A stretch of DNA of 64,000 nucleotides from Cheilinus undulatus. Its lineage: Eukaryota; Chordata; Actinopteri; Labriformes; Labridae. The notes under the pieces are model-generated. The model searched no databases. It had not been told where the DNA came from and worked only from the letters and a program-made list of their open reading frames with translations. The translations under genes and the position numbers were made by a program. This document shows positions 29,591 through 64,000 of the stretch, piece by piece. Position 1 is the stretch's first letter; every line of letters starts with the position of its first letter. The stretch spans positions 47,194,198-47,258,197 of the forward strand of contig NC_054879.1 of assembly GCF_018320785.1 (NCBI RefSeq), written 5' to 3'.

Positions 29591-31473
29591 ATGGTGTCAC
29601 ACCTTAATCAGCTAATGAACTCCAAACACCTGCAAAGGTTTCCTGAGCCTTTAAATGGTCTCTCAGTCTGGGTCAGTAGGTGGGTTGTGAGAGGATTGTC
29701 AAGAAAAATCCATTCAAGAATTTGGGGGGAGCTTCACAAGGAGTGGACTGAGGCTGGAGTCGGCGCATCAAGAGCCACTATGGACAGACCAATCCTAGAC
29801 ATGGGCTACACATGTGGCATTCCCAGTGTCAAGCCACTCCTGAACCAGAGACTATGTCAGAAGAGTCTTCCCTGTGGAGAAAAAGAACTGGACTGTTGAG
29901 GTCTCAGTGGTCCAAAGTCCTCTTTTCAGATGAAAGTACATTCTGCATGTCATTTGGAAATCAAGGTCCCAGAGTCTGGAGGAAGAGTGGAGAGGCTCAG
30001 AATCCACGTTGCTTGAAGTCCAGTGTGAAGTTTCCACAGTCAGTGATGGTTTGGGCTGCCATGGCATCTGCTGGTGTTGGTCCACTGTGTTTTCTGAAGT
30101 CCGCAGTCAATGCAGCCATCTACCAGGACATTTTAGAGACCTTCATGCTTCCTTCTGCTGACAAGCTTTATGGAGATGCTGATTTCATTTTCCAGCAGGA
30201 CTTGGCACCTGCCCAGACTTCCAAAGGTACCAAAAGCTGCTTCAATGACCATGGAGTTACTGTGCTTGGTTCTGAGCTGAACCCCATAGAGCAGTGGTTC
30301 TCAACCTTGGGGTCGGGACCCCATTGGGGGTCGCGAGACACTGAGAGGGGGTCTCAAGATGCCTTAAAAAAACTAGGAATATTTTTTAATCTACACTTTT
30401 GCCGCTTTAAACCAATTTTTCCAGATTTCAACCTGTTGTCATCACCTTTTAACCACCAATTTTGCCAACTTTAACAAATTTGTGCCACTTAAAACCAATT
30501 TTTGTCAGTTTTATACCCTTTCCACCACCTTTTTTCTGCCTGTTTTTGCCACTTCTAAACCAAATCTTGCCACTCTCTGCCTATTGTTGCTCTGTTGACC
30601 CATTATTGCCACTTTTAACCCCTCTTTACCACCTTTAATGCCACATTTGGCAATTTACTGTGCCCATTTTTTCTACTTTAATGCCATTTCTGCCTACATC
30701 TGCCTCAGCTTACCCTTTTCTGCCAATTTATAACAATTTTTCATCCCATTTCCCCAAATTTCCACCTATTGTTGCTACTTTAACGTCATTTCAGCCACTT
30801 TTGAATCTGTTTTTGCCACTAAATAAGCCCGTTTTTGCTACTTTAACCCATTTTTATATTTTTTTGCCACTTTTATCCAAATTTCTGGCACTTCCAACCC
30901 ATTTCTGCTACTCTTAAACTCCAATTTCACCACCTTTCCCAGCATTTTTAACCCATTTCAATTTTTTTTAAAGTGTTTAAATTCTGTTAAAAATAGAAGG
31001 ATTTACATTTTTAAGAAAGCTACTTACTGTACAAACGAATAAAAAATATATTTGTTTCTTTGATAAGAGTGGTTATTATTCATATTAAATTTAAAATACC
31101 ACAGCTTCACTTTACTATGGACCATGATTTTGCTGGCCCCCAGCTTGGCTGGGTCATTTTTCCCCCCTAATGGACGGCCTTGTCTCCACATGACTTTTCT
31201 AGATTGTGCATAGCTGTGTTTTACCACCTTCAGGTCCAGTGGGGGGTCCCCGGTCTCTGGCAACTTTATTTTGGGGGTTGTGGGCTGAAAAGGTTGAGAA
31301 CCCCTGCCATAGAGAATCTATGGGGGATTGTCAAGAGGAAGATGAGAGACACCAGACCCAACAATGCAGCAACCTGGGCTTCCATTACACCTGAGCAGTG
31401 CCACAGGCTGATCACCTCCATGCCACGCCGCATTGATGCAGTAATTCATGCAAAAGGAGGCCCAACCAAGTAC
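29591..31473 (+). pseudogene. Tc1 transposase, decayed and split by a hAT insertion
   Basis: The D,D,E blocks are visible. WSKVLFSDESTF at about 29,910-29,945 holds the first aspartate. FQQDLAPAQTSK near 30,190-30,225 holds the second. SELNPIE, at 30,270-30,292, resumes after the hAT with NLWGIVKRKMRDTRP from about 31,313. The C-terminal end reads SMPRRIDAVIHAKGGPTKY, stop at 31,474-31,476, the usual end of this subfamily. The N-terminal DNA-binding half is degenerate and a stop near 29,898 breaks the frame. The published family length is about 340 residues. Confidence 0.88.
30292..31306 (+). mobile_element. hAT-type non-autonomous element, CAGTGGTTCTCAACC ends
   Basis: It starts CAGTGGTTCTCAACCTTGG and ends AAAAGGTTGAGAACCCCTG. 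A perfect octamer ccatagag at 30284-30291 and 31307-31314 flanks it. The interior is TTTTTGCCACTTTTAACC-like, and the last 300 bases hold a unique block with TTGCTGGCCCCCAGCTTGG. It interrupts the Tc1 transposase inside the NPIE motif, so it is younger than the Tc1. Confidence 0.93.
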
Positions 31474-45884: not shown

Positions 45885-47775
45885 TGAAGTTTAGTGTGTT
45901 TTCTTCACCCAAGAGGGCAGTTTAGTGTGTTTTTCCAACCAGAAGGGCACATTAGCGTGTGTTTTGGCTCCAAAGAAGGCACCTTAGCATTCATTTTGGC
46001 TCAAAAGTTGGCACTTTAGCACATGTTTTGGCTCCCAAGAGAGCACTTTAGCATGCGTTTTGGCTCCCAAGAAAGCACTTTAGCACATTTTGGCTCTCAA
46101 GAGGGCACCTTAGCATGCTATTTGGCTCCAAAGAAGGCACCTTAGCATTCATTTTGGCTCAAAAGTTGGCACTTTAGCATGCGTTTTGGCTCCTAAGAAA
46201 GCAATTGAGCACGTCGTGGTTCTCAAGAGGGCACCTTAGTATGCATTTTGGCTCCCAAGAGGGCACTTCAGCATGTGTTTTGGCTCCCAAGAAAGCACTT
46301 TAGCACATGTTTTGGCTCCCAAGAGAGCACTTTAGCATGCCTTTTGGCTCAAAAGTTGGCACTTTAGCATGCGTTTTGGCTCAAAAGAAAGCATTTTAGC
46401 ACATTTTGGCTCTCAAGAGAGCACTTTAGCATGCTTTTTGGCTCCAAAGAAGGCACCTTAGCATGCTTTTTGGCTCCAAAGAAGGCACCTTAGCATGCTT
46501 TTTGGCTCCAAAGAAGGCACCTTAGCATGCGTTTTGGCTCAAAAGTTGGCACTTTAGCATTCATTTTGGCTCAAAAGTTGGCACTTTAGCATGCATTTTG
46601 GCTCCCAAGAAAGCACTTTAGCACATGTTTTGGCTCCCAAGAGAGCACTTTAGCATGCGTTTTGGCTCCAAAGAGGGCACCTTAGCATGCGTTTTGGCTC
46701 CCAAGAGAGCACTTTAGCATGCGTTTTGGCTCCAAAGAGGGCACCTTAGCATGCGTTTTGGCTCCCAAGAGAGCACTTTAGCATGCGTTTTGGCTCCAAA
46801 GAGGGCACCTTAGCATGCATTTTGGCTCCCAGGAGAGTACTTTAGCATGCATTTTGGCTCCAAAGAGGGCACCTTAGCATGCGTTTTGGCTCCAAAGAGG
46901 GCACCTTAGCATGCGTTTTGGCTCCCAAGAGAGCACTTTAGCATGCGTTTTGGCTCCAAAGAGGGCACTTTAGCATGCGTTTTGGCTCCCAAGAGAGCAC
47001 TTTAGCATGCGTTTTGGCTCAAAAGTTGGCACTTTAGCATGCGTTTTGGCTCAAAAGAAAGCATTTTAGCACATTTTGGCTCTCAAGAGAGCACTTTAGC
47101 ATGCTTTTTGGCTCCAAAGAAGGCACCTTAGCATGCTTTTTGGCTCCAAAGAAGGCACCTTAGCATGTGTTTTGGCTCCAAAGAAGGCACCTTAGCATGC
47201 GTTTTGGCTCAAAAGTTGGCACTTTAGCATTCATTTTGGCTCAAAAGTTGGCACTTTAGCATTCATTTTGGCTCAAAAGTTGGCACTTTAGCATGCATTT
47301 TGGCTCCCAAGAAAGCACTTTAGCACATGTTTTGGCTCCCAAGAGAGCACTTTAGCATGCGTTTTGGCTCCCAAGAGGGCACTTTAGCATGCGTTTTGGC
47401 TCCCAAGAAAGCATTTTAGCACATTTTGGCTCTCAAGAGAGCACTTTAGCATGCTTTTTGGCTCCAAAGAAGGCACCTTAGCATGCGTTTTGGCTCAAAA
47501 GTTGGCACTGTAGCATGCGTTTTGGCTCCAAAGAGAGCACTTTAGCATGCGTTTTGGCTCCAAAGAGAGCACTTTAGCATGCATTTTGGCTCCAAAGAGG
47601 GCACCTTAGCATGCGTTTTGGCTCCAAAGAGGGCACCTTAGCATGCGTTTTGGCTCCAAAGAGAGCACTTTAGCATGCGTTTTGGCTCCAAAGAGAGCAC
47701 TTTAGCATGTTTTGGCCCTCGAGGGCACTTTAGCATGCGTTTTGGCTCCCAAGAGGGCACTTTAGCGTGCGTTTA
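45885..47775. repeat. 32-bp minisatellite, about 58 copies
   Basis: The unit is roughly GCGTTTTGGCTCCCAAGA followed by GAGCACTTTAGCAT. Copies vary mainly in CCCAAGAGAG, CCAAAGAAGG, CAAAAGTTGG and CTCAAGAGAG variants, and a few copies lack two bases. Edge copies (45885-46000 and 47700-47775) are diverged. Variant order repeats with a spacing of about 670 bases (46381 compared with 47051), a higher-order structure. Stop codons occur, and no long frame spans it. Confidence 0.95.
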
Positions 47776-49695: not shown

Positions 49696-50866
49696 TAACA
49701 GTGGAGAGGAGGATCAGCAGATTTCTACCAGTTTAAATAAAAAAACATAGGTTCAAACATTAAGATAATTTAGAAGATTTAGATTTAATCAACAAATCAT
49801 GTAGGCTGTTAAAAAACAAAAAAATAAATTAGCATTTATCTCCACTTTGCACAGTGTGTCTTAAAAGAGAAACTTAAATCCTAAATTCCAGAAAATTGTC
49901 TGTTAACTAGGTAATCATTTAAATGTTACTGCTACTTTTAAAATTTAAAGGCAAGATAGAAATTAGATCAAAAATAGGTAATATATATATATATATTATA
50001 CATATTCAATGGCGGATTTGATGTGGATTTAATTTTTAAAGACCTCAAAAAGCCACCCAAACCTGGGCTTGACAAGCTTCTGTAAGGGCTACTGGTCAGT
50101 CAATGATTAAACTGGTAAAACCCCATAAAAATCTTTACTTTAACTCATAATTATCAAACAATCACAACAGAAGCCTTAAGTTCTCAGCAACATTTATTAA
50201 ACAAAAACAAACACACCAGGCATAGGGAACACACAACATGCAAGACTTTTGACAAATAGGAAACTCATTTTTAGGTCAGGTTATTTTATTTCAAGTCAAC
50301 AGTTGAGGATACCTTAAAAATGTGGAGAAAACAAAACAAAAATTAAATCAGTTGTAACAAATGCAGTCTGTACATTTGAACAATTTTAAACCAGTCATTT
50401 TAATTTTCAATATTTTTGTTTAGAATTTGTTATTTTCAACACCAAATTCTTGAGACTACAGATTCTACCATTTGATTATTAAACACCGTACAGATACAAT
50501 ATTTCATTATCAAGGTTAAGATTTCATTTGATCTTAACCAGGTCAATAATTAGAGCTGAAATCTTCAACACTGACCGAACAAGAGAAAGACCAGGAAGTG
50601 GACAAGCCGCCCATTCTGATATAGAAGTGTGTTTGAATGAGAGCATGTTTGCAACCAGTTACAGAATATAAAAGAGAATCAGTCGACTTCTGAACTGCTC
50701 TAGAAGTCATGAAGTGAAAGCACAGAGCTTTTTTCAGACCTCAGTTACATTCTTTAAAAGGACAAACTGGCAAAAATATTTCCAACTAATCTGAGTGATC
50801 TGTAGAGGTTTCCTGGGATGCATGATATTATCAGTCTGATATCAGTATGAGCAGATAGAAAGTTTG
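49696..50866. other. intergenic stretch, nothing recognised
   Basis: AT-rich sequence with a short (AT)n at about 49980-49997 and poly-A-type runs. No open frame, repeat family or RNA gene was recognised. Confidence 0.6.
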
Positions 50867-51244
50867 CAGTGTTAATTTCTAAAACTATGACTAAAAACGT
50901 TCGTCGACAACCTTTTTTTTCCATGACAAAAACTAAACTAAAACTAACAAAAGTAGATCTGTGATGACTAAAACTGACAAAGGTAGGGAGGTAAATCTGT
51001 AGGGTGCAGAGAACACACTAACATGATTTGATACCAGATTTAGGCAAGAGAATAAATGCTTGGACTCAAAGAAAAGATGAAATGTGAGGACGTTTTATGG
51101 ACTAAACTAGACTAAAATGTTTTGAGTTTTTGATGACTAAAACTAGAAAGAGTAGAAATGACTAAAATGTGACTAAAACTAAAATGTATCATTTAAAGAC
51201 TAATACTAAGACTAAAATAAAAATAGCTGCCAAAATTAACACTG
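50867..51244. mobile_element. hAT-type MITE (CAGTGTTAA family), intact
   Basis: The ends are CAGTGTTAATTTCTAAAAC and GCCAAAATTAACACTG. A perfect octamer aaagtttg flanks it (50859-50866 and 51245-51252). The interior is made of GACTAAAACTAGAC-like words. It is 378 bp with no coding capacity and the best-preserved of three copies in the window. Confidence 0.92.
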
Positions 51245-51252
51245 AAAGTTTG

Positions 51253-52200
51253 ACATCTGCTGGTATTTGACATTTTTTAGTTACTGAGAGTATTTACAGC
51301 TGTTTTTTGGCTGAGAATATCAGCATATATTGACTGTAAATTTTGGCCATATAAACTAAAAAAAAGGTGGATTTTTAGGTTAGTAAAACATTTAAATATT
51401 GGTATCCATACTGCTATCAGAATCAATCCGTAAACATCACCATATCAGCAAAAACCCACTATCATGCATCCCAAGATGTTTCCTAAAGTAATCTCATATC
51501 TACTGTACTTGCAAGCATAGTGAAGTTAAAACTGCATGTACCAAGAGATGGTTGGGTTAAAATTGTTAGCTGCTGGTAAAGCTACCAGAATCAGATCATT
51601 TTAACTAAAGTTAGATATATCAAATTACAGCCAACATTTTTAATCCAACAATCTCTGCTGCTGTCACAGTCAGCAGGCAACAGGAAAAACCACTGTAGTG
51701 TAAATCCTGCAACCATATAATGGCTGCAGGATTTACACTACAGTTACTGACTACTGGCTACTGACTACAAGATTATTGGTCAATACCAGCAATTTGCAAG
51801 ACCGACAGAAACAATCTAGAGATGAGAGATGATCCAGTTGTCAATTAAAGTTCACTGTGATAACACTTCATATGACAACTTCAGAACTTGAACAACAAAT
51901 AATAATAAACATTACATTGAGGAAATGCCATTAAGGCAGTGTGACAAGGAAACAAGGCAGTTGGACTAAAATGGAAAAATTTAGAAGATAATAGAAAAGC
52001 AAATTGTCAAGATAGTAAAACTCTATTTTTCTAAATTTCTCCAAATCCTTCAGCCCTAGTTTGGTGCAAAATTATTCACCTGCAATTTTTTCCCAAAATT
52101 TTGATTGCTATTTAATATGGGATTTTCAAATCCGTCATCTTGTGTTTTAATAAAGCAGAGCAATAAATGATACTGTATTATAACAAATACCATATTGGGT
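51253..52200. other. intergenic stretch with a local inverted repeat
   Basis: Around 51685-51740 the phrase GTAGTGTAAATCCTGCA is followed by TGCAGGATTTACACTAC, a perfect 17-base inverted repeat with a short spacer. A TAGGGCTG-family end fragment lies at about 52050. Nothing else was recognised. Confidence 0.6.
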
Positions 52201-52204
52201 AGAT

Positions 52205-52995
52205 AACACTAGGGCTGAAAAATTCTGAAAAAATAACCAACTTAAAATATATACAGTGCTTAACAAATGTATTAGCCCACCTGTCATATTTGTCTCAGAG
52301 ACCATCCAGTATCATGAAGTGCTTTAATGCGGACTCTCTCATTTTCAGTGAGCTCTCCACGTTTTACCATTTTGAACAGGAATGAGGAATTTCAAACTGA
52401 ATTCACCCAAATTTGAGCTGGCTCACTGGGCTTCTCTGAGAAGTCAGAAATGAATCAAGCATAACATTCAACCACTAAAACTCATTTTCTGTTCAGGAAT
52501 GCAAGTAAATAACTATCATTTGACATAGTAATCAAGAAATTTTAGTGTGCTTTAATATTTTTTTTGTAAATCAGTAAATTTGAAAATTAACAATAATAAT
52601 TCTATTTTTGCATTAAAAATATCATTTGGGTTAAAGAGCTTCTACATATTGGTGTATTAACCATTGCAGAAACATCAAATATGATTTTGGTAATTACCAA
52701 TGCTGTTAATTTAGGGCAGCTGTGGCATAAACCTGACTTTGGTTAGGGCTAGGATGGTCTAATACATTTGTTAAGCACTGTATTTTGACTTGTACTGCAA
52801 ATTTAATCAGTTTTTTCTTGTACTGAAGAGAGAAAATCATTTTTGCAAATTATCCTAGAAAAACAAACAAATGCTTGCAAGATGTTGTATTAAAATGGTA
52901 CTTGACACATTCAGTTGGAATAAAAACTGCACCTTTTGCAATCTGATATCTGCAGTGGGCCAGGCTGATTTCATCTAAAATTTGCCCTACAACCA
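52205..52995. mobile_element. TAGGGCTG-family element hosting a mariner-type MITE
   Basis: It starts ACTAGGGCTGAAAAATTC and has a decayed end near 52990 (AATTTGCCCTACAACC). The family's AATCTGATATCTGCAGTGGG region is still visible. The middle is occupied by the MITE 52254-52780. Confidence 0.6.
52254..52780. mobile_element. mariner/Tc1-type MITE
   Basis: The ends CAGTGCTTAACAAATGTATT and AATACATTTGTTAAGCACTG are perfect inverted repeats flanked by TA on both sides. It is 527 bp without a transposase frame. Confidence 0.9.
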
Positions 52996-53574
52996 ACTAA
53001 AAATCCAGAAAAAAAACTAAACAAAAGTAAGAGTTAATGAAAATAAAGATAAATCCTAACAAAAATAGGCCTAACATTTTTAACAAAATTAGTCATTGAA
53101 TCCTGTTGTTTTGCCCCAACTTCAGGGATAATGTGGTTAACTGTTCAAGACATAAGTCTATACTATACGAGTGTGAGACTTTTTCCCCAACACTGAGCAG
53201 TCTGAAGACATTTGTTCAGGCAGACGTAGAGATATAGTAGTAGCAGAGATCAAGCACACTGGCGAGCTGGCACTCGTGAGGTTTCATTGTGAAAAAACAG
53301 ATATAATTCCATGAGATGACACTGCTATGCAAGGCCAAGCAAACAAGACATACTGCGTTTCACTGTGTGCACACTGAAAGTGAACCCATGTGGTGGAATT
53401 CACTCATTGCTTGTATAATGAAAGTAGCATTGTGTTTTAAAGGCAGCTAACATACTGTGTGCTGACTGTACCACTCCATCTTTTTGTCAACCAGTAGTTC
53501 AGCACCAGTTCTTTGAATCCTGAGTAAATGGAAGACTGTGAGGTTAAGACCAACCCTTCCTAGATCAGGAAGAG

Positions 53575-53948
53575 CTTAGAAGCTCTTCCAAAGGGAACGG
53601 CTAAAGCCTTTAGCCAATGAAGTAGATGGCCCTCAAGCCAAGAAAGCTGGAGGCCATTTTAGTAGAAGGCCCTCCGGCCTCCTTGGCCCCCTGGCCGAGG
53701 TAGCTGGGGGCCATTTTGGTAGAGGGCCCTGCGGCCTCCTTGGCCCCCCAACCGAGGAAGCTGGGGCCGTTTTAGTAACGGCCCCAGCTTCCTCGGCAGA
53801 AGCTGCTGGTGAGGTTGTGGATGTGGCACCCCGTGTCGTCCAGTCCAGGCTGCAACAGGAGGACCGAGACCCCATTGTTGCTGCCTGTGGAGCCTCTGGC
53901 CACATCCAGCAGAGAGGTCAGGGCTACACCTGTACGTCGAACTGCTGA
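53575..53948 (+). CDS. open frame over the 57-bp repeat, unidentified
   Basis: A plus-strand frame without an early ATG runs through LANEVDGPQAKKAGGHF, two 19-residue repeats (GGHF.RGP.GLLGP), then EVVDVAPRVVQSRLQQED and a SGHIQQRGQG end, stop at 53,946-53,948. The post-repeat part has balanced amino-acid use. Overlapping minus-strand frames of 90 and 147 codons exist, so strand and coding status are uncertain. No family is recognised. Confidence 0.25.
53640..53800. repeat. 57-bp tandem repeat and perfect hairpin
   Basis: GCTGG-anchored units recur at 53646, 53703 and 53760 (period 57, a multiple of three). The third unit contains an exact inverted repeat at 53752-53796: a 20-base stem starting CCGAGGAAGCTGGGG, loop TTAGT, then its complement. 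The sequence is G+C-rich (GGCCCTGCGGCCTCC). It is open in one plus and two minus frames, which is expected of a repeat with a period of three and does not prove coding. Confidence 0.8.
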
Positions 53949-54336
53949 GGAGTGCTTTAACGATCACTAGAGGCAACACCACCCCGAGCTTAATACCAGC
54001 AACAATGTGGCTTCCAGATGCCAGGAAACAGCCAGAGATGGAATAAAACAAAAATGAAAAAATGTGATGTCTGTAATGGAATGCTGTCAGACCATCACAC
54101 AACCTGAACAGTGCAGAGCACAGACCCCTGGGAGGTCTTCACCATGACACAGTTACTGGCCTCAGATTCACCAAGTCCAGGCCTATCACATGACCACCGG
54201 TGGACTTGTCAGACACACAAAACACAAAGGCATTATGGGGCTGCAGTTTCAACTAAACTTCCTCACTCAAATCCAATGATGCTTACAAAAGCTTAAAGTC
54301 AAACAAGTTCTAATCTACACCAACACTGTCTTGCAA

Positions 54337-55440
54337 GGCAAGTAAAGCCTTTATCTAACCATCTTGCTGCTTTGAAAATGGCAGGTGCAGGTGGCATCTG
54401 GTCATCCCACAGGCTCAGAATCCCGAAACCTTATAAAGGCGTACCTAACAAACCCCTGAGCCGGCAGGACAACCAGACACTACCCACAGATGCTGCATGC
54501 AAAGGGCACAAGATGCTACTCTAACAGTCAGGCACTCACGTGCCAACACTACACCCTGTGCTACTTCCCCTGGGAAAAGACCCTATCACCTTACCTGTGA
54601 CACGACTGAAACAGCTGACTACACCTGCCCCACTGGATCACACAAGATCCCAACAAAACAAACATCCCACCTGTGAAAATTTGAGTTCCTGAGCACAGTG
54701 AAAAGATCCATCTCTGGCAAAGATGTGATCGACCACAACCTGGTCGTCTCATTCACATTCAAGGGTCAGAATCAGAGAACCATGCACACTAATCAGCCAG
54801 CCATCTGTCTACAGGTTGTCCTGAGGAGTCTTCTCAAACCCAAATCCCCGTGCCTGGTGTCCACAAGGCCTGCGAGGCTTAAGGGAGAGTCCTGCGTCTC
54901 AGCATACAGCAACCACAGAACCATGATGCACCGAGAGCTCAGGGGTTTGTGTAAAAGGTACACAATTATATGGTTTCGGGATTCTGAGCTGTCAGCACAC
55001 CAAGGCGTTTCCTGCAGTCACAATACACCTAGACTCAAGACTCTACACCTCAAGCCTCACTGGCCCTGTAAAGCACCATGCACAGGGACAATGGGCGTGA
55101 CAAGACCCTCCAGGATAACCCACAGACAGACCGCTAACGATCAGTGCAGATGCTTCTCTCACCCCAACTCTGAATGTAAATGAAAACTAACCAGGAAGCA
55201 GATGATCACAAGTCCGTCTGAGATGTTTCTCTCACTCTACCCAGGAAGTCAGCCTTCCACAGGTGGACAGCTCTGCTCCAGCCTTCACCCGAGTGTCTAA
55301 AGCATACATCTAAACACCTGACTACACAACCACTAAGTTATCTGCTAACCTTTCACTCGGGTGATCTACCAGCTTCAATGACAAACTACCCTACATTTTA
55401 ACACTGTGTTAGCTACGGCCACTCAATGACCAACATAGAA
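54337..55440. repeat. direct duplication, copy 1
   Basis: It matches 55609-56605 at an offset of 1,272 with only scattered substitutions (for example GAGTTCCTGAGCACAG against GATATCCTGTGCACGG). The copies diverge by deletion after about 55270: copy 2 lacks roughly 40 bases (GCTCTGCTCCAGCC...) and a further block before GGCCACTCAATGACC. The spacer sequence 55441-55608 belongs only to this copy. Confidence 0.93.
54698..55183 (+). CDS. unidentified 161-codon open frame, copy 1
   Basis: The frame is open from a TGA at about 54,671 to TGA-free sequence ending TAA at 55,181-55,183. The first codon listed is GTG; the first in-frame ATG is at 54782 (133 residues from there). It reads KRSISGKDVIDHNLVVSFTF, then ICLQVVLRSLLKPKSPCL, and a basic, cysteine- and histidine-containing tail. 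No signal peptide, membrane segment or family is recognised. The early VVSFTFKG stretch looks strand-like. CTACAG/GTTGTCC at about 54,810 could be a splice acceptor, so the frame may mix exon and intron. Confidence 0.3.
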   Translation: MKRSISGKDVIDHNLVVSFTFKGQNQRTMHTNQPAICLQVVLRSLLKPKSPCLVSTRPARLKGESCVSAYSNHRTMMHRELRGLCKRYTIIWFRDSELSAHQGVSCSHNTPRLKTLHLKPHWPCKAPCTGTMGVTRPSRITHRQTANDQCRCFSHPNSECK

Positions 55441-55608
55441 ACAAACATAAACCTTAAGGTTCATACCCAGCAGGGTATTCATCCCCTCTAGAAACTGCAG
55501 CCAAAAACTTCACACAACCATCAACTCACCATCAGAAAAAACAAGAGCAGAGGCATGTCATACCAAGAAATGCCTCTCCTCCTAAAACCCTAGACTAGGA
55601 ACTCTGTA

Positions 55609-56605
55609 GGCCAGTAAAGCCTTTATCTAACCATCTTGCTGCTTTGAAAACGGCAGGTGCAGGTGGCATCTGGTCATCCCACAGGCTCAGAATCCCGAAA
55701 CCATATAAAGGTGTACCTAACAAACCCCTGAGCCGGCAGGACAACCAGACACTACCCACAGATGCTGCATGCAAAGGGCACAAGATGCTACTCTAACAGT
55801 CAGGCACTCACGTGCCAACACTACACCCTGTGCTACTTCCCCTGGGTAAAGACCCTATCACCTTACCTGTGACACGACTGAAACAGCTGACTACACCTGC
55901 CCCACTGGATCACACAAGATCCCAACAAAACAAACATCCCACCTGTGAAAATTTGATATCCTGTGCACGGTGAAAAGATCCATCTCTGGCAAAGATGTGA
56001 TCAACCACAACCTGGTCGTCTCATTCACATTCAAGGGTCAGAATCAGAGAACCATGCACACTAATCAGCCAGCCATCTGTCTACAGGTTGTCCTGAGGAG
56101 TCTTCTCAAACCCAAATCCCCATGCCTGGTGTCCACAAGGCCTGCGAGGCTTAAGGGAGAGTCCTGCGTCTCAGCATACAGCAACCACAGAACCATGATG
56201 CACCGAGAGCTCAGGGGTTTGTGTAAAAGGTACACAATTATATGGTTTCGGGATTCTGAGCTGTCGGCACACCAAGGCGTTTTCTGCAGTCACAGTACAC
56301 CTAGACTCAAGACTCTACACCTCAAGCCTCACTGGCCCTGTAAAGCACCATGCACAGGGACAATGGGCGTGACAAGACCCTCCAGGATAACCCACAGACA
56401 GACCGCTAACGATCAGTGCAGATGCTTCTCTCACCCCAACCCTGAATGTAAATGAAAACTAACCAGGAAGCAGATGATCACAAGTCCGTCTGAGATGTTT
56501 CTCTCACTCTACCCAGGAAGTCAGCCTTCCACAGGTGGACACCTAAACACCTGACTACACAACCACTAAGTTACAGTCAAACCTACCTGTGGCCACTCAA
56601 TGACC
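55609..56605. repeat. direct duplication, copy 2
   Basis: Begins CAGTAAAGCCTTTATCTAACC and parallels copy 1 through the ACCCAGGAAGTCAGCC block. After that it is shortened by at least two deletions. In the 5' part, the ATG of a 48-codon frame present in copy 1 (MAGAGGIWSSHRLRIPK) is ACG here, so that small frame is not conserved. Confidence 0.93.
55970..56455 (+). CDS. unidentified 161-codon open frame, copy 2
   Basis: Same length, frame and stop as 54698-55183 with a handful of amino-acid changes (D to N in GKDVI(D/N)H, S to F before CSH, N to S, S to P near the end). Retention of the full length in both copies is compatible with coding, but the duplication may be too young to be informative. 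The first ATG is again at codon 29 (56054). Confidence 0.3.
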   Translation: MKRSISGKDVINHNLVVSFTFKGQNQRTMHTNQPAICLQVVLRSLLKPKSPCLVSTRPARLKGESCVSAYSNHRTMMHRELRGLCKRYTIIWFRDSELSAHQGVFCSHSTPRLKTLHLKPHWPCKAPCTGTMGVTRPSRITHRQTANDQCRCFSHPNPECK

Positions 56606-56689
56606 AACACAAATCAAACATCACATCATCCAACACGTTTGTGTCCTGTGATTGTGACAGTGCCATGGATAACCATGCCATAGGTCCAG

Positions 56690-57090
56690 TCAGGACAAAA
56701 ATGAGGCCAGGAACTCCACGCCCTGGCTCAGACCACCCAGGTGTCTACAGATGCAGCTGCCCAGGCTGTGAAACAGACTGAAGACACAGACAGGAAGCAG
56801 CTGATGAAGCCTCGGCAGTGTGCTGCCTTCTGTGATCGCCGCGCCACACAGCGGCGCGAGGTACAGGCGTAGCCCTGGCCTCCAAGCTGAATATGGCCGA
56901 AGGCTCAACAGGCAGCACTCATTTTTGGTCCCGGCCGTCCTGTGGCAGCCTGGACGGGACCTACTGAAGGTGCCATACCCACCAAATCTCCACTTCAACC
57001 TCATCAGCAGCTTCTGCAATTTTTAAGGAAATTTCAGTTTGTATACAGTTTTATCTTTTTTTTTATTATCAAACTGATTAAAGTGATATA
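56690..57090 (+). other. possible 3' exon region with ATTAAA signal
   Basis: G+C-richer sequence 56690-57025 includes a plus frame AAAQAVKQTEDTDRKQLMKP ending TAG at about 56,871, and a second frame LQAEYGRRLNRQHSFL through VPYPPNLHFNLISSFCNF to TAA at 57,024-57,026. A CGCCGC/GCGGCG hairpin lies at about 56,836-56,855. ATTAAA at about 57,076 is a plus-strand polyadenylation signal candidate. No protein family is recognised. Confidence 0.25.
57062..57067 (-). terminator. AATAAA polyadenylation signal candidate
   Basis: TTTATT on the plus strand reads AATAAA on the minus strand, about 550 bases past the stop at 57,616. Another candidate unit ends nearby on the opposite strand (ATTAAA at about 57,076), giving convergent 3' ends. 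Confidence 0.4.
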
Positions 57091-57615
57091 TTTTAGGTTA
57101 TTAAAACAAAGGACTTAATTTCATGTACATTCTGTAATATTGGTCATTAAAATTTGCCCTTGTAAAGATTGAGAGCCTTTTGTGAGCAAGGAACCATGTG
57201 GACTGTATAAATGTCTAGTTTTCTTATTTGGGTGGCCTACATGGAGGAATGTTTGAATGAAGCATTTTCTGTCTCTGCTACCAGTTTCTACCCACTTACT
57301 GACCTCTAATATCCCCCAGATATTCGTTTCCTGTGACATAACTTTTAAAGGGCTTAACAAAACTGTGCACGCCCAGTTTATGCTGCCATTTTAATGCTAC
57401 TTACTTTTTCTAAGTGCACACAGTTACTGCAACAGTACATTTGGCCTGCTGGGCAATTAGAGTGGACGCCTGGCCTTGTTAAAAAGAAGGAACCATGCCC
57501 TCCTAGTCCAGGCAGTCATTCCATAGATATTCATGCAGGAGGCAGCGTCCTCCTGGCCACAGTGGTTTCCCTTTTGTCTTGTTTTTTTTTTGAGTGTAGT
57601 GTTATCAAAGAAGCA

Positions 57616-57686
57616 CTACACATCCAGAGGACGCTTACTGATCTGAGTGTCATCATAGATCACCACTCCATCCTCTTCAAAAGAAC
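57616..57686 (-). CDS. possible last coding exon
   Basis: After the acceptor TTATTAG, the minus strand reads SFEEDGVVIYDDTQISKR then PLDV and TAG. Twenty-two codons are open in the phase set by the preceding exon's final G. The acidic-aromatic composition looks protein-like, but a run this short can be open by chance and the family is not recognised. Confidence 0.3.
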
Positions 57687-57777
57687 CTAATAAGGGGAAA
57701 ATAAATACATCATTTTAGAATAAAGAAAACATTCCAGTGTTATTACAAATATCTTGAAGTTCAGTGTAACCACTAAC

Positions 57778-57850
57778 CTGATATTTCATCAAGGTTCACA
57801 GCACAAGGTTCTTCATTACTGATGTGTGATGGACTTCATGTGACAGAGTG
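57778..57850 (-). other. candidate exon preceding the last exon
   Basis: Bounded by TTTTTTTTAG on the acceptor side and CAG followed by GTTAGT as donor; 73 bases. The frame compatible with the last exon reads SNEEPCAVNLDEISG after a TGA in codon 5, so either an internal acceptor is used or the exon is untranslated. Confidence 0.35.
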
Positions 57851-58667
57851 CTAAAAAAAAATAGAAAAATATAGGATCAGAATATCTCAAATACACCTGC
57901 AGATGTTTAGCATTTAGTAAAAAACAGTAAAAAACAAAACAAAACAAAAAAACCCCAAAAAAACCAAAAACATTTTATGACTAACGCTTTCCAAAATATT
58001 TATCCATATCTATAGACAAAGAAAAGTCCATGCATTTTTTGCACTTAGATTTATTTGTGCCAGTCCCAATGCAGCAGACACACAACTAGTTGACTACAAC
58101 TCCCACAATGCATTGCAGTAAACAACATGGCAATACCCTGGGCAGAAAGCCGAAGTGAGTGATCGAAAATGGATTAAAAATAGCGTCCTTTAGGGCTACA
58201 GAGACATTGAGGTTAGCAAACAAATGACAGGAAAGTCAGCTTTCAGAGGAAAAAAACAAGTAGAGGCTATGACTTATTTTTTCAAAAGTTATCAACATTT
58301 TTATAAACTTGTCATTTCTTGTTATTTACGACGACACCGTCCTCAGAGACCTCGGAAAGTCAGCCAAGTTCTGGGCTCGCTAGAAAATGTGCTGTAAGAG
58401 CTACGAACGCACGGAGAACACAATCAGAAAGGCATAACGGAGAGCTTTCACACACACACACACACACTCACACAATAAAAATGTGTCTATGACCGACGCT
58501 TCAAACGTTACCAAGTGATCTATAAAGGGATGTGCCTGTGGCACGGATCCATGCCGTGTGAGCTCTAAGGGTTAACCTTCCATTTACTCAAGACTACTGT
58601 ATGGATCAGTCTTGAGCAACATCAATATACAATCTGAAATCTAATGTAGCATCTACTTATGTTTTAC

Positions 58668-58783
58668 CTGAGGTTCAGGTACTTGGACATCTTTAGCCGC
58701 CATGTGTTTGTGAGGCTGGAATTAGTCCTGATCCCTGCAGGGCAATTATGCTCATCCCAGCAACATAGAGGAGGTCCAAGGTC
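58668..58783 (-). other. exon module B, copy 1
   Basis: Acceptor TTTTAG before GACCTTGGACCTCC; donor CTCAG followed by GTAAAAC. One frame is open through the exon and ends MSKYLNL at the junction. Homologous to 60024-60156 and about 59090-59190. Confidence 0.4.
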
Positions 58784-58910
58784 CTAAAATTTAAAAAAAA
58801 GCATATTTACATGCTAAATATCAGCCCCAACCACACAAAAAATACAAACAGATAAAATCTGCATAACTTTGTATGTCAGTGACAGAAAAATGTAATTTTC
58901 CTGTTCTTAC

Positions 58911-58994
58911 CATGAAATGCAGATTAGTCATCACATCTCTGCAACATGACAATCTGGTTCACTATGTCCTCGACATGCCACAATGATGTCCATC
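58911..58994 (-). other. exon module A, copy 1
   Basis: Acceptor CTTCTGCAG, donor CATG followed by GTAAGAAC; 84 bases. It starts GATGGACATCATTGTGGC. One base shorter than the other two copies, and therefore frameshifted with two stops after MDIIVACRGHSEPDCHVAEM. Confidence 0.4.
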
Positions 58995-59089
58995 CTGCAG
59001 AAGCAACAAGAGGGTACAGTGCTGTTAACCAGAACATCAGCAGTCTTTCACTTATACAGGAGTAGTGTATGGGTCAGTCCGGGTCATAC

Positions 59090-59190
59090 CACAATAGTAG
59101 AGACAGTCTGCTCCCTCTCTCAGCCCAGGTCTTTGTCCAACTGCAAGGCAATCATGCTCATCACAGCAACAAGATGGAGGTCCAAAGCTC
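59090..59190 (-). other. exon module B, copy 2
   Basis: Acceptor TTTTTTAG before GAGCTTTGGACCTCC. The right part matches the other B copies (CTTGCAG, GGACAAAGACCTGG, GAGAGGGAGCAG). The AAGTACCTGAACCTCAG donor end is missing; GTATGA near 59,086 might substitute. A TGA interrupts its best frame. Confidence 0.3.
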
Positions 59191-59315
59191 CTAAAAAATA
59201 GAAATACATCCATCTACATGCAAAAAATATGCCTCAACCATAAAAATTTAATAACCGTCTGTTTTTAAATAACTTTGTTTGTAATGGATACAAATTGCTA
59301 TTTTCCAGTGCATAC

Positions 59316-59400
59316 CATGTAATGCAAATAGGCCATCACTTCTCCACAACACGACAAGAGTAGTTGACTCTGTCCTCGACATGCCATGGTGACGTTAATC
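59316..59400 (-). other. exon module A, copy 2
   Basis: Acceptor ATCTGCAG, donor ACATG followed by GTATG; 85 bases. It is open as MACRGQSQLLLSCCGEVM then AYLHYM, with ACCATGG as a good start context. Similar at the amino-acid level to copy 3. Confidence 0.4.
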
Positions 59401-59493
59401 CTGCAGATGCAGTAAGAGGGTACAGTGCTGTTCACCAGAAATTCAACAGCCCTCCATTTAAAAAAAAAAAAAAAAAAGTACTGTGAGTGTTAA

Positions 59494-59887
59494 CCCTCAG
59501 GCATCACTAGGGACAGTTCTGTCCATTTGGACAAATTTTTCCTCCTTCTCTGCTCTTCATTCTGGCTGTGTTCGTGCATATGGTCTAATTGTTAGCAACA
59601 AAGTTTTTTTCAAGGCAAATTTCAAATGCTCTCATAGGTCAGGGGAAAACTGAAATAAAATTTCCACCCTTTAAAGCCATGAAGGACAAAAATGTCCACT
59701 TCCAAAAATTTGTTATAAAAACTTAACATATTCATATTTTTTCTTTTTGTTTTTCAAAAATCTCTTAAACAACTGCAGCTGTGCTCAAAACTGACAATCT
59801 TTTAAGTTTTTGTAGCAGTTTTTTGGAAGGGGGAATTTATGTCCTTAATGGTTTTGAAGGATATTAAATTAAAGTGATGCCTGAGGG
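59494..59887. mobile_element. piggyBac-type MITE
   Basis: TTAA at 59490-59493 and 59888-59891 flanks inverted ends CCCTCAGGCATCACTA and AGTGATGCCTGAGGG. It is 394 bp with no transposase, and lies between exon modules A2 and B3. Confidence 0.88.
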
Positions 59888-60023
59888 TTAAGCATACCAA
59901 AATAACAGCGACAACAAACTAACTGTACACAGTGTAAATAAGGATGTACCAGTTAAAAAGACTAGACTCCTGCATCAATACCATCTGCAAACAACAACAA
60001 CCACTAAAATAAACAATATTTAC

Positions 60024-60156
60024 CTGAGGTTCAGGTACTTGGGGGCATAGTGCATAGTGAGGGTGTAGCAAGTCCTGCTCCCTCTCTCTGTCCAGGTCCT
60101 TGTCTGACTGGCTGCAAGACAACCAGGCTCGTCAGCAACATGGAGGTCCAAAGGCG
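60024..60156 (-). other. exon module B, copy 3
   Basis: Acceptor TTTTAG before CGCCTTTGGACCTCC, donor CCTCAG followed by GTAAATATT; 133 bases. One frame is open throughout: LDLHVADEPGCLAASQTRTW then APKYLNL at the junction. An inner CTTGCAG could act as an alternative acceptor, giving SDKDLDREREQDLLHPHYAL in another frame. Confidence 0.4.
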
Positions 60157-60235
60157 CTAAAATATAGAAATATATTTTTTTTTTGCTTGCTAAAAATCTG
60201 CCCTAATCACAGAAAAAAAATATACTCTAAAAAAT

Positions 60236-60560
60236 CTACACAACTTTGGAGAAAATTGGTACCATCATTGGTTTTGTTGTCCAGTGCCTGTATGTGGGCG
60301 AGGGGCGAGGAGCTGAATGTTTTCCAGACCTCAGCTTGGACAAAGGCCTCCCCCGCCATCCTTGGTGTCTCTTCCTCCTCTGAGTTGAAGGACCCATTGG
60401 CATGGGAAGTTCAGGGCTCCAGCTGCAGCTCTGGCAGTGGAACTCCAGGAAAGCATTTAGGGATAATTCCCAAAATGTGACACTGTGATGAGAAGGAATG
60501 CAGCACTGCAGGGAACTCTGGACAGCATGAATGCATGTCAAGGTGGTCTTGGAAGTCACT
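60236..60560 (-). CDS. possible coding exon, unidentified
   Basis: The minus strand has a frame ANGSFNSEEEETPRMAGEAF, then VQAEVWKTFSSSPLAHIQAL and DNKTNDG, near a GATG/GTACCA donor-like site. A TGA lies five codons upstream, so an acceptor or ATG just inside would be needed. An overlapping frame (QRRKRHQGWRGRPLSKL) is longer but arginine-rich and less natural. It sits between modules A3 and B3 and has no counterpart in the other modules. Confidence 0.3.
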
Positions 60561-60875
60561 TCTTATCAAGGTTGTTGCTTTTCCTCCTTCATGTGTTCAC
60601 AGGTTTAAAAGGGCAGTCTCCCTCTCTGTGTCAATGGTCTTAACTCTGCAGAACACAACAGAACTGATTCATTACTCTCTTACTAGAACAGAGGAAAGGA
60701 TTGCTGATGCACATGGAACCTTTATTTTCTTTCCTCCTTGTATAAAGAAAAGGTACATTTCTGTAATTCAGTTGCTCATTTTTATAAATCAGTCGCAACA
60801 ACAAAGATAAAAAGATTAAAAAAAATCTGCATAGCTTTTTATGTAATTGAAAATTGCCATTTATTCTCTTCTTAC

Positions 60876-60960
60876 CTTGGAATGCAGATGGGTCATCACT
60901 TCTCTGCAACAAGACAACAGTGGTTCACTCTGTCCTTCACATGCCACAATGACGTCCATC
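60876..60960 (-). other. exon module A, copy 3
   Basis: Acceptor GGTTCTGCAG, donor TCCAAG followed by GTAAG; 85 bases. Open as MDVIVACEGQSEPLLSCCRE then VMTHLHSK. Pattern shared with copy 2: GQS.(P/L)LLSCC.EVM..LH. Confidence 0.45.
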
Positions 60961-60995
60961 CTGCAGAACCAACAAGAGGGTACAGTGCCGTTAAC

Positions 60996-62067
60996 TAGGG
61001 CTGAACGATATGCAAAAATAATCTAACATAGAATATATAGAAATTTTGATATCAACTGCTTTATTGAAGGGGATGATCATTTCTCATATTCTCATCTTGA
61101 TGAAGAAAAATAAATGCATGAGCAAGAAAAGTAAGATTTTTGTAAAAAATAAAATAAAAAAGATACTTGAAGGTTTGAATAACGTATAAAGTAGTGATAC
61201 TCAACGCGTGCCTCCAGAGCCACATCTGACTCTTTTATGTCTTCATTTTAAATATTATTCCCCCAGAACACCTTAAAAAAAGGAAACCTTTTTGCCCTTT
61301 TCACCATTTTTCCTACTTTTTACCCATTTAAACAATATTTTGCCTTTGAAAAATCACTTTTTTTCTACTATTTTGCCACTTTCATCCCATTTTTCCCTAT
61401 TACAGTTGTCTTTTGCCATTTTATACGACATTTTCCCTACTTTGTCGCCCCTTTTGACATTTTTTTTTTGCAATTTGATACCCATTTATTGCCACTTTTA
61501 TCCCATTTTCGCCCTTTTGTATCTGCATTTTCACCCATTTAAGCTCCCTTTTGTCATTAAATACCACTTTTTCCTACTTTTTTTGCCCATTTTAGCCAAT
61601 CTTGACTGCTTTTTGTCCATTTCAGTCACTTTTCACTCATTGTTATTCATGGTTTTGCCTCTTTAGGACCATTTTATGCCAACTTTAACTCATTTTTTGT
61701 CACCTCTCACCAATTTTGGCTTCTTTCTGACCCCTTTTCCACTTCTCCTCCCCATGCGCGCCCCTTTTTACCCATTTTGGTTGCTCTCTGACCATTCTTG
61801 CCACATTTAACTCATTTTTATTGCTGTATTTGCCACTTTTCACCACTTAGATTGTGGCTCTTGCAAAGGTATTTTTCAGCTATTTGGCTCTTTGGTTGAG
61901 CAGGGTTGAGTAACACTGGTGTGAAGGATAAAAAAAAGTAAAAAGACTGTATCAAACTAGTATTTTGACACATTTCAGGTTAAAGACATATTGCACTGTC
62001 TGCGATTTGAAAATTGCAGCATGCTTCATTGCGATTAATCGAATTTGCGATTAATTGCCCAGCCCTA
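60996..62067. mobile_element. composite TAGGGCTG-family element, second copy
   Basis: The ends are TAGGGCTGAACGATATGC and TTAATTGCCCAGCCCTA. Octamers ccgttaac (60988-60995) and ctgttaac (62068-62075) differ at one base. The inner hAT-type insert (about 61195-61917) is located as in 23383-24722. It is inserted into the intron between exon 2 and module A3 of the candidate gene. Confidence 0.85.
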
Positions 62068-62110
62068 CTGTTAACCAGAAAATCATCAGCCCTCCATTAA
62101 AAAAGCATGC

Positions 62111-62126
62111 CATGGTGAGGTCTATC
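62111..62126 (-). other. candidate exon 2 start with ACCATGG
   Basis: Acceptor GTTGCTTCTGCAG, then GATAGACCTCACCATGGC. The first 5' ATG in strong context would be at 62111-62113. The following sequence departs from the A-module pattern after GGCATG, consistent with a deletion, and the reading frame soon runs into the transposon. The exact right boundary of the exon is unknown. Confidence 0.35.
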
Positions 62127-62407
62127 CTGCAGAAGCAACAATAATGATTACCCTCAGTAAAGACAGGCTTACAAATAACTCCAGTTAAGGATGCTCCCTG
62201 GCTTCAACTCATAGTAGGCCCCAGTTTAACTATCAAGCTATCAGGAATGCTGACGTAGATGTTTCAGTACTAGTGGACAACAGACTAAGGAGCACATGGA
62301 TGCTTTATTCCTACACTACAAGTTCAATGAGAACATGACATGTTTTCAATTGAAAAGCCGATAGCATAGCGAGCTAGCACAAGCTAACCGGAAGCATTCA
62401 GACTCAC

Positions 62408-62605
62408 CTGTCCAACAGAAACAGCCCAACTTTGGGTCTCTCTCCAGCCAAAGGCTCCCAGAATCCAGACTGCTCTTCATCAGCGGCTCCTCATGAACCC
62501 ACAAGCCGCTGAAAGACAGCTTAGTCGCGTTTGTTGTTTGTGAACAAGTTCTTAGCTGCTCATTCAGCGCTCTCACACAGCTGGACCCGCCATGGCTGCC
62601 TCAAA
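62408..62605 (-). other. candidate first exon, minus-strand copy
   Basis: It starts about 30 bases past the TATA box and ends TTGGACAG followed by GTGAGTC. It contains short upstream ATGs (CCATGGCGGGTCC; GCTGATGAAG), but no frame runs cleanly into exon 2, so it is probably 5' untranslated. The 76-codon frame here begins with GTG and crosses the donor, and is therefore not taken as a gene. Confidence 0.5.
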
Positions 62606-62629
62606 CAGAGCTCCATGTGTTGGCACCGG

Positions 62630-62637
62630 TTTAAATA
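62630..62637 (-). promoter_or_regulatory. TATA-like box, minus-strand copy
   Basis: Minus strand TATTTAAA within GGTGTGTATTTAAACCGG, with a GGTAGGGGGCGG box and a CACGTG E-box (within TTCACGTGGAG, about 62658-62665) just upstream. Confidence 0.5.
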
Positions 62638-62681
62638 CACACCGCCCCCTACCGCTCTCCACGTGAAGCACAGCCGGACTG

Positions 62682-63057
62682 ACTGTGACGTCACTCTTGT
62701 CAAATTATAAAATAAAAAGTCATAATTAAAAGATAAGAAGTTGAAATAATGAGATAAAATGTCATAATTATGACATTTTATAATATGCACGTTTTACCCC
62801 CTTCACTCTTTTACAGTATTTTTTTCATTCATTGTTGCATCATTTAAGTCAATGTTTGCTACTCTTTAACCCCTTTTTGCAACTTTGCATGGCTGTTTTT
62901 GCCACTTTTAACCAATTTTTGATATTTTTTGCCTCCTAAACTCTGTTTTCCAATTCTTTTGCCCATCACAAGCCACTTTTTCTGCACGTTTAACTCTCTT
63001 TGAGCCACTCTTTTATCCATTTTTGCCACACAAGAGGAAAGGGCAGCAGAGTTCGGC
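62682..63057. other. palindrome spacer
   Basis: 376 bases unique to the centre. It includes the CRE, a perfect 28-base palindrome at 62754-62781 (ATAAAATGTCATAA and its complement) and, from about 62800, a T-rich TTTTTGCCACTTTTAACC-like array as in the hAT interiors. No genes. Confidence 0.9.
62686..62693. promoter_or_regulatory. consensus CRE (TGACGTCA)
   Basis: The palindromic TGACGTCA lies 49 bases upstream of the TATA-like box of the minus-strand copy, just outside the inverted-repeat arm. The right-hand copy has no such site at the equivalent distance. Confidence 0.45.
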
Positions 63058-64000
63058 CAGTCCGGCTGTGCTTCACGTGGAGAGCGGTAGGGGGCGGTGT
63101 GTATTTAAACCGGTGCCAACACATGGAGCTCTGTTTGAGGCAGCCATGGCGGGTCCAGCTGTGTGAGAGCGCTGAATGAGCAGCTAAGAACTTGTTCACA
63201 AACAACAAACGCGACTAAGCTGTCTTTCAGCGGCTTGTGGGTTCATGAGGAGCCGCTGATGAAGAGCAGTCTGGATTCTGGGAGCCTTTGGCTGGAGAGA
63301 GACCCAAAGTTGGGCTGTTTCTGTTGGACAGGTGAGTCTGAATGCTTCCGGTTAGCTTGTGCTAGCTCGCTATGCTATCGGCTTTTCAATTGAAAACATG
63401 TCATGTTCTCATTGAACTTGTAGTGTAGGAATAAAGCATCCATGTGCTCCTTAGTCTGTTGTCCACTAGTACTGAAACATCTACGTCAGCATTCCTGATA
63501 GCTTGATAGTTAAACTGGGGCCTACTATGAGTTGAAGCCAGGGAGCATCCTTAACTGGAGTTATTTGTAAGCCTGTCTTTACTGAGGGTAATCATTATTG
63601 TTGCTTCTGCAGGATAGACCTCACCATGGCATGCTTTTTTAATGGAGGGCTGATGATTTTCTGGTTAACAGTAGGGCTGGGCCATTAATCGCAAATTCGA
63701 TTAATCGCAATGAAGCATGCTGCAATTTTCAAATCGCAGACAGTGCAATATGTCTTTAACCTGAAATGTGTCAAAATACCAGTTTGATACAGTCTTTTTA
63801 CTTACTGATTACTTTTTTACAAAAGGGCGAAAATGGGATAAAAGTGGCAATAAATGGGTATAAAATTGCAAAAAAAAAGTCAAAAGGGGCAACAAAGTAG
63901 GGAAAATGTCGTATTAAATGGCATAAGACAGCTGTAATAGGGAAAAATGGGATGAAAGTGGCAAAATAGTAGAAAAAAAGTGATTTTTCAAAGGCAAAAT
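63058..64000. repeat. inverted repeat, right arm
   Basis: Reverse complement of the left arm, running to the window edge, where it still matches (the final bases AAAGGCAAAAT pair with ATTTTGCCTTT at 61337). The arm therefore continues beyond the window. It includes a TAGGGCTG-family segment from 63673. Confidence 0.95.
63102..63331 (+). other. promoter and first exon, plus-strand copy
   Basis: TATA-like TATTTAAA at 63102-63109, predicted start near 63134, exon end GGACAG at 63331 and donor GTGAGTC at 63332-63338. The exon 2 start is duplicated at 63613 (GATAGACC after CTGCAG). The rest of this unit would lie right of the window, so whether it continues as a second gene copy is unknown. Confidence 0.5.

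Follow-up and report, generated by a model that had tools for sequence, protein, structure and literature searches.

A 24-kb head-to-head palindrome in Cheilinus undulatus, probably a dispersed multi-copy unit duplicated in inverted orientation

The stretch of Cheilinus undulatus DNA analyzed here (the window, 64,000 nucleotides; contig C15:47,194,198-47,258,197) holds the left arm, the center, and the beginning of the right arm of a palindrome of ~24 kb, in which two arms of ~11 to 13 kb stand head to head across 376 bp. Both arms belong to a family of dispersed copies headed by a promoter-like region and a predicted exon 1, they share a nested transposon, they differ at ~1% of their sites, and they have private losses. 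We consider it very probable, from the comparison of the arms, that the structure is a true inverted segmental duplication, in which one copy of the dispersed multi-copy unit was mirrored beside itself. As an inverted segmental duplication, the palindrome is an ordinary, known kind of rearrangement; it is of interest mainly because copies of one unit recur as inverted pairs.

Extent and divergence of the palindrome

Within the window, the halves of a core inverted repeat, 61,936-62,681 versus 63,058-63,803, are separated by 376 bp and alike at 744 of 746 bases; a 746-bp match at 99.7% rules out chance as its source. In an outer block (61,337-61,521 versus 63,818-64,000), 178 of 185 alignment columns are alike. 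An earlier note on this DNA had described a near-identical head-to-head palindrome with a 376-bp spacer, and both blocks bear this out. The same note gave arms of at least 940 bp, a correct figure, yet only about one-tenth of the real arm length. The right side was extended by 19 kb past 64,000 from the window's own genome and aligned against the left side, a step proposed in that note, and the inverted match runs on to ~74,037 on the right and to ~49,867 on the left (positions beyond 64,000, loci L009-L010, are given in window numbering). Further inverted blocks pair 59,775-61,521 with 65,562-63,818 (99.3%) and 50,032-58,184 with 73,788-65,569 (97.1%). Two inverted arms longer than 1 kb and more than 90% identical define an inverted segmental duplication, and the C15 arms are of this kind; their private losses and base changes favor the presence of both on one physical molecule. 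The main parts are as follows.

49867..62681, minus strand: left arm, one family unit from the promoter (62.7 kb) to near the 3' end (blastn, left versus right)
62682..63057, no strand: center of the palindrome, 376 bp
63058..64000 in the window and on to ~74,037, plus strand: right arm (arm alignment in the extended sequence)
60996..62067, no strand: hAT-type element, flanking repeats at 60,988-60,995 and 62,068-62,075; right-arm counterpart from 63,672 to ~64,341
61522..61935, no strand: left-only stretch of 400-414 bp by alignment, missing from the right arm
58185..59774, no strand: left-only stretch of ~1.58 kb, missing from the right arm
54440..54666, minus strand: left-arm patch, 99.6% identical to the adjoining tandem unit 55,713-55,938

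The arms were aligned in three collinear blocks comprising 10,631 sites, with 180 mismatches, 80 of them concentrated in a single left-arm patch of 227 bp (54,440-54,666). Outside the patch the arms differ at 100 of 10,409 sites, or 0.96%. The mismatch profile was taken from the block alignment, and only gap sizes were used from a global arm alignment, which misplaces bases near large gaps. The part of the right arm inside the window measures 943 bp and lies opposite ~1,345 bp of the left arm, because the left arm has 61,522-61,935 and the right arm does not. The outer flanks of the two arms differ from each other. At ~49,990 versus ~73,900, a segment of ~23 bp beside an (AT)n run appears by eye in opposite orientation in the two arms, resembling a hairpin flip.

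The nested element begins with TAGGGCTG, ends with CAGCCCTA, and is flanked by the 8-bp sequences ccgttaac and ctgttaac, alike at 7 of 8 positions. Short terminal inverted repeats together with an 8-bp target duplication, the marks of hAT elements, are both present, and from these ends we take 60,996-62,067 to be of hAT type. The family copies C4, C5, C14a, and C20 continue uninterrupted across the insertion site. Both arms carry the element at the corresponding position, which makes the duplication the younger of the two events, as the earlier note had argued.

Changes are found on both arms. When the 100 mismatches outside the patch are polarized on the copy of contig C7, 32 are left-derived, 23 are right-derived, 5 are neither, and 40 have no reference base; polarized on the C20 copy, the corresponding numbers are 31, 31, 0, and 38. 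At the patch position, the right arm has the version of the C7 and C20 copies (93-94%), and the left arm appears to have been overwritten by its tandem neighbor. A related element at 23,985-24,722 contains the 0.4-kb left-only stretch as well (81%), and most of the ~1.58-kb stretch is present in other family copies, so both gaps look like losses from the right arm. The mismatches are clustered, with a variance-to-mean ratio of 2.32 in 250-site bins, a value reached in 0 of 5,000 permutations.

The dispersed family and its inverted pairs

The exon 1 region, taken in the earlier note for one gene's promoter, is one copy of a dispersed duplicon. The searches covered the window's own assembly (G000; 1.17 Gb, 46 contigs), where a 474-base exon 1 query hits no fewer than 40 loci, counting the two arms, with E values of 1e-90 or lower at 27 of them; the 40 loci were merged by hand from 44 search rows and are a lower bound, since 40 of 48 candidates were scored. 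Copies whose surroundings were read share several kilobases with the arm, and even an old C9 copy, ~70% identical at exon 1, keeps the order of promoter, body, and 3' part. A multi-kilobase unit found at many unlinked places in one genome, as here, is an interspersed segmental duplication. No published report of the exon 1 family was found in a search, not a thorough one, of the literature on related duplications, and the searches made here gave no named family to which the unit could be assigned.

Several younger copies (C4, C5, C7, C12b, and C14) also share sequence upstream of the promoter, and their match to the C7 copy ends at different upstream points (~-1,018, -976, -867, -347, -165, -112, -44, and 0 to -3). 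Most strong copies had seemed to begin at the same base, window position 62,697, like a transposon with a sharp 5' end. This candidate was rejected, as other copies share sequence further upstream; the apparent common start arises because the query, the window copy, is broken there. Two side observations concern upstream regions. At L012 (C5:45.717 Mb), the match to the C7 copy is bordered directly upstream of -976 by a fragment of the family's 3' part in inverted orientation, another inverted join. At L017 (C4:55.48 Mb), a short tandem repeat upstream of the promoter gives rise to open frames of great length in several frames.

An exon 1 tree was built from 32 of the 40 loci (27 strong and 5 weaker), omitting 8 weak or partial matches, L042 and L043 among them. 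It contains seven mutual best pairs, and the six tightest (95.3-100% identical) each lie on one contig in inverted orientation. These six are listed with exon 1 identity, distance, and orientation.

C15: 100%, ~0.4 kb apart, facing away from each other
C19: 100%, ~7 kb apart, facing away from each other
C16: 99.6%, ~3.2 Mb apart, facing away from each other
C14: 99.2%, ~610 kb apart, facing towards each other
C12: 98.3%, ~195 kb apart, facing towards each other
C20: 95.3% (98.3% over 3.36 kb), ~172 kb apart, facing away from each other

The seventh pair joins C13:46.8 Mb with a copy on C23 (91.2%) and so spans two contigs. The C14 copy reaches 95.1-95.2% identity to copies on other contigs (C19:32.0 Mb and C20:32.9 Mb); with cross-contig identity as high as 95.2%, the C20 pair does not stand far above background. 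C19 provides a second close head-to-head pair, with 3.04-kb arms that are 99.7% identical and 7.1 kb apart, and the family's 3' part is found on both sides.

The chance that six of six pairs are inverted is 1 in 64, a statistic chosen after the data had been seen and without a control family. By hand count, same-contig neighbors are inverted in 11 of 11 cases among the 27 strong loci and in 15 of 21 over all 40, and copies found by the exon-unit search alone add direct neighbors on C10, C12, and C20. None of these counts alters the probability given to an inverted duplication at C15, because that reading rests on the arms. The six inverted same-contig pairs could reflect a duplication bias or survival through conversion. 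A broader proposal, which we regard as unlikely, is that the family is a promoter-headed non-coding duplicon whose new copies preferentially arise inverted to a partner 0.4 kb to 3 Mb away on one chromosome. Such a duplicon would be a source of palindromes, possibly of inversions, and of paired divergent or convergent long non-coding RNAs, as a fish counterpart of primate core duplicons with a non-coding gene at its base. If the inverted same-chromosome tendency is borne out by a genome-wide control and by other fish, the family would offer a ready set of natural palindromes of varied spacing and age, which would serve the study of how mirror duplications form, convert, and break.

The primate core duplicon LCR16a, which bears the NPIP genes, is a gene-bearing unit of ~20 kb that forms interspersed segmental duplications (PMC7419210). 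Like LCR16a, whose copies also flank inversions (PMC7419210), the present unit is dispersed, with some copies inverted on one chromosome. Unlike LCR16a, where NPIP is a fast-evolving gene family, it has no evident protein and its copies are spread over many contigs; no common descent is claimed.

Origin of the palindrome

We infer a fold-back step, the following order of events, and outward firing of both promoters. Close to the promoter, a broken or stalled end would have folded back by way of the short inverted match ACAAGAG, found on both sides of the center; DNA synthesis would then have copied the unit outward, and a second switch would have ended the copy near the 3' end of the unit. Afterwards, the right arm would have lost a cyclic AMP response element (CRE), ~0.4 kb, and ~1.58 kb, and the left arm would have lost ~15 bp at the center, with one patch overwritten by its tandem neighbor. 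Firing outward, the two mirror promoters would give two divergent, mostly non-coding transcripts, of which the right one, without the CRE, would probably be weaker.

Inverted duplications with an unduplicated spacer are described in humans and attributed to fold-back, with spacers of at least 766 bp; of 21 junctions sequenced, 13 showed inverted microhomology of 2 to 8 bp (PMC3907307). The C15 palindrome resembles these cases in its mirror copies, its short unduplicated spacer, and the short inverted match at the spacer edge. The human cases are large and often lie beside terminal deletions (PMC3907307), whereas the C15 arms measure 11-13 kb, are interstitial, and are limited to one family unit. 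The structure of the arms also recalls the sex-chromosome palindromes whose arms stay similar through conversion between them (PMC3723533, PMC8981503), since the C15 arms are inverted, more than 99% alike in the core, and uneven in identity; unlike those palindromes, the C15 arms are ~1% divergent overall. We found no literature on center-break palindrome revision.

Several points weigh against the reading proposed here. The inverted ACAAGAG 7-mers (62,694-62,700 and 63,030-63,036) enclose 329 bp of the center (62,701-63,029), and the center, whether counted as 376 or 329 bp, falls below the 766-bp minimum of the human spacers (PMC3907307). The 7-bp match is partly family sequence and is therefore weak evidence for a fold-back. 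The clustering of mismatches points to conversion between the arms or to uneven mutation, which makes 0.96% a poor clock. Among the exon-like units described in the next section, 13 of 13 scored as 85 nt, including that of the old C18 copy, are open in one frame, and that frame is closed in 13 of 13 units of 84 nt; the units may thus derive from a coding exon, with coding past or present.

The alternative put forward in the earlier note was an assembly fold-back, in which the right arm would be an artifact produced by a chimeric read or by joining the two haplotypes of a single locus in inverted orientation. Fold-backs are a known type of assembly error, the core is nearly perfect (744/746), and a difference of ~1% is compatible with two haplotypes. 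A read chimera, however, would be near-identical throughout, whereas the C15 arms show private losses (~0.4 kb and 1.58 kb) and a private patch, the two edges of the center carry different small changes, and the outer flanks differ; a haplotype join would require an inverted mis-join beside the promoter. A similar structure is present at C19, though in the same assembly. The private losses, the private patch, and the ~1% difference with changes on both sides argue strongly against a fold-back in assembly, which, with the C19 pair also disfavoring it, is most unlikely. Short-spacer inverted duplications are hard to assemble and easily taken for artifacts, and the C15 palindrome, with internal evidence of independent arm histories, may serve as a worked example.

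Two other explanations accept the palindrome as real. In one, the unit would be a large mobile element of the non-autonomous kind, and the palindrome would stem from two insertions, the earlier of which served as template for the later; this would suit the dispersal over at least 40 loci, the near star-like tree of the younger copies, the unit order kept even in the old copy, and the upstream sequence common to C4, C5, C7, C12b, and C14, which in C7 includes an RVT_1 match in the same direction. That match, at 26.8 bits, lies below the Pfam cut-off of 29.6, and copies differ in how far upstream they match the C7 copy; in the copies read, we saw neither terminal repeats nor target duplications in common, although no systematic scan for them was made. 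In addition, the C19, C20, and C16 pairs share sequence upstream of the C7-match limit, as segmental duplications do, and we judge a mobile element to be very unlikely. Decidedly unlikely, too, is a functional divergent gene pair under selection, with its arms homogenized by gene conversion. The promoter and exon 1 are identical between the arms, the other 250-site bins outside the patch differ at 0-9 sites, and the mismatches are clustered, all as such a pair would have it; GT follows 30 of 30 exon-like units, and the CRE and TATTTAAA are kept in 9 and 8 of 10 aligned copies, respectively. Against selection for a working pair, the right arm is without the CRE and without two of the three left-arm exon-like units, unit lengths vary (84, 85, and some of 66, 74, or 83 nt), and invariant donors are unremarkable given that 32 of the 134 columns show no variation and that the acceptor was used in selecting the units. 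An inverted segmental duplication, assigned the high probability stated at the outset, is the reading we prefer.

Promoter-like, exon-like, and central features

The features of the promoter-like regions, the exon-like units, and the center are as follows.

62630..62637, minus strand: TATA-like TATTTAAA of the left promoter (read in the sequence)
63102..63109, plus strand: TATA-like TATTTAAA of the right promoter (read in the sequence)
62686..62693, minus strand: CRE-type TGACGTCA, in the left promoter only, the right arm being without it
62408..62606, minus strand: predicted exon 1, left; its start is placed ~25-30 bp from the TATA-like box, and it ends at the GTGAGT donor
63133..63331, plus strand: predicted exon 1, right, the mirror of the left one (alignment of copies)
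62,402-62,407 (left, minus strand) and 63,332-63,337 (right, plus strand): GTGAGT donor (read in the sequence)
62127..62128 (left, minus strand; mirror at 63,611-63,612): first acceptor AG (TTGTTGCTTCTGCAG; read in the sequence and in the copy alignment)
60876..60960, minus strand: exon-like unit of 85 nt, AG...GT, separated from exon 1 by the hAT element
59316..59400, minus strand: exon-like unit of 85 nt, within a stretch missing from the right arm
58911..58994, minus strand: exon-like unit of 84 nt, within a stretch missing from the right arm
62699..62790, no strand: AT-rich short repeat of the TCATAATTAT type, in the center
62819..63029, no strand: T-rich array of TTTTGCCACTTTT; the repeat is dispersed, and other loci, on several contigs, match it at 69-90%
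63041..63052, plus strand: upstream sequence GGGCAGCAGAGT, common to other copies and kept on the right side only

The TATA box, donor, and exon 2 acceptor that the earlier note had placed on both arms can all be read twice. Its exon 2 and its mirrored promoter stand only in part: the acceptor is followed by the hAT insertion, with no donor seen between the first acceptor (62,127) and that insertion, and the TATA-like box is present on both arms, whereas the CRE is present on the left side only. In an alignment of 10 copies, both arms counted, the CRE is found in 9 (the right arm is the sole row without it), CACGTG and TATTTAAA are found in 8 each, and all 10 have GT at the exon 1 donor. The exact CRE site is absent from two old copies, C22 and C9:16.88 Mb. 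The two TATA-like boxes lie ~465 bp apart and face outward, so the predicted promoters could be transcribed divergently, as in the divergent gene pair suggested by the earlier note; a bidirectional promoter pair would give transcripts both ways from starts less than 1 kb apart. As the right arm is without the CRE and without two of the three left-arm exon-like units, the output of the pair would be asymmetric.

The family is apparently non-coding, as judged from its reading frames and from profile searches. In a Pfam scan of 10 open reading frames, 9 had no match at E values up to 1, including all 8 from the arm, the unit body, or exon 1 proper. The tenth, upstream of the C7 copy and outside the window, gave a match to RVT_1 (E value, 4.9e-6) at the score given above; it resembles a long interspersed nuclear element (LINE). 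A 28-residue exon frame has no match in PDB at E values up to 10, and a search of the whole window against Rfam at gathering thresholds found nothing. Exon-like units follow one another in tandem downstream of exon 1. Of 42 candidates, 30 complete ones were counted; the 12 dropped were 7 first acceptors without a donor of their own nearby and 5 matches of the selection motif just after a donor. All 30 are followed by GT, and 27 of them are 84 or 85 nt long, the others including units of 66, 74, or 83 nt; C14a_4410, scored as 64 nt by the script, is a false donor call with a real length of 85 nt. The 84-nt and 85-nt units do not share a reading frame. With the acceptor part of the selection and a quarter or so of the alignment columns invariant (32/134), conservation of the splice sites is suggestive only.

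At the edge of the center, most other family copies have GGGCAGCAGAGTGACGTCACAGCCAGTCCGG or a sequence near to it, of which the left arm is without the portion preceding AGAGTGACGTCA, with ~15 bp missing. A similar TCATAATTATGAC / TTTTATCTC short-repeat array is seen both in the center (62,699-62,790) and just outside the right arm past 74,037, and it is perhaps a switch point. Elsewhere in the window, a 32-bp tandem repeat of ~58 copies occupies 45,944-47,774, outside the palindrome, and an open frame at 29,752-30,474 resembles, by eye, a transposase of the Tc1/mariner type.

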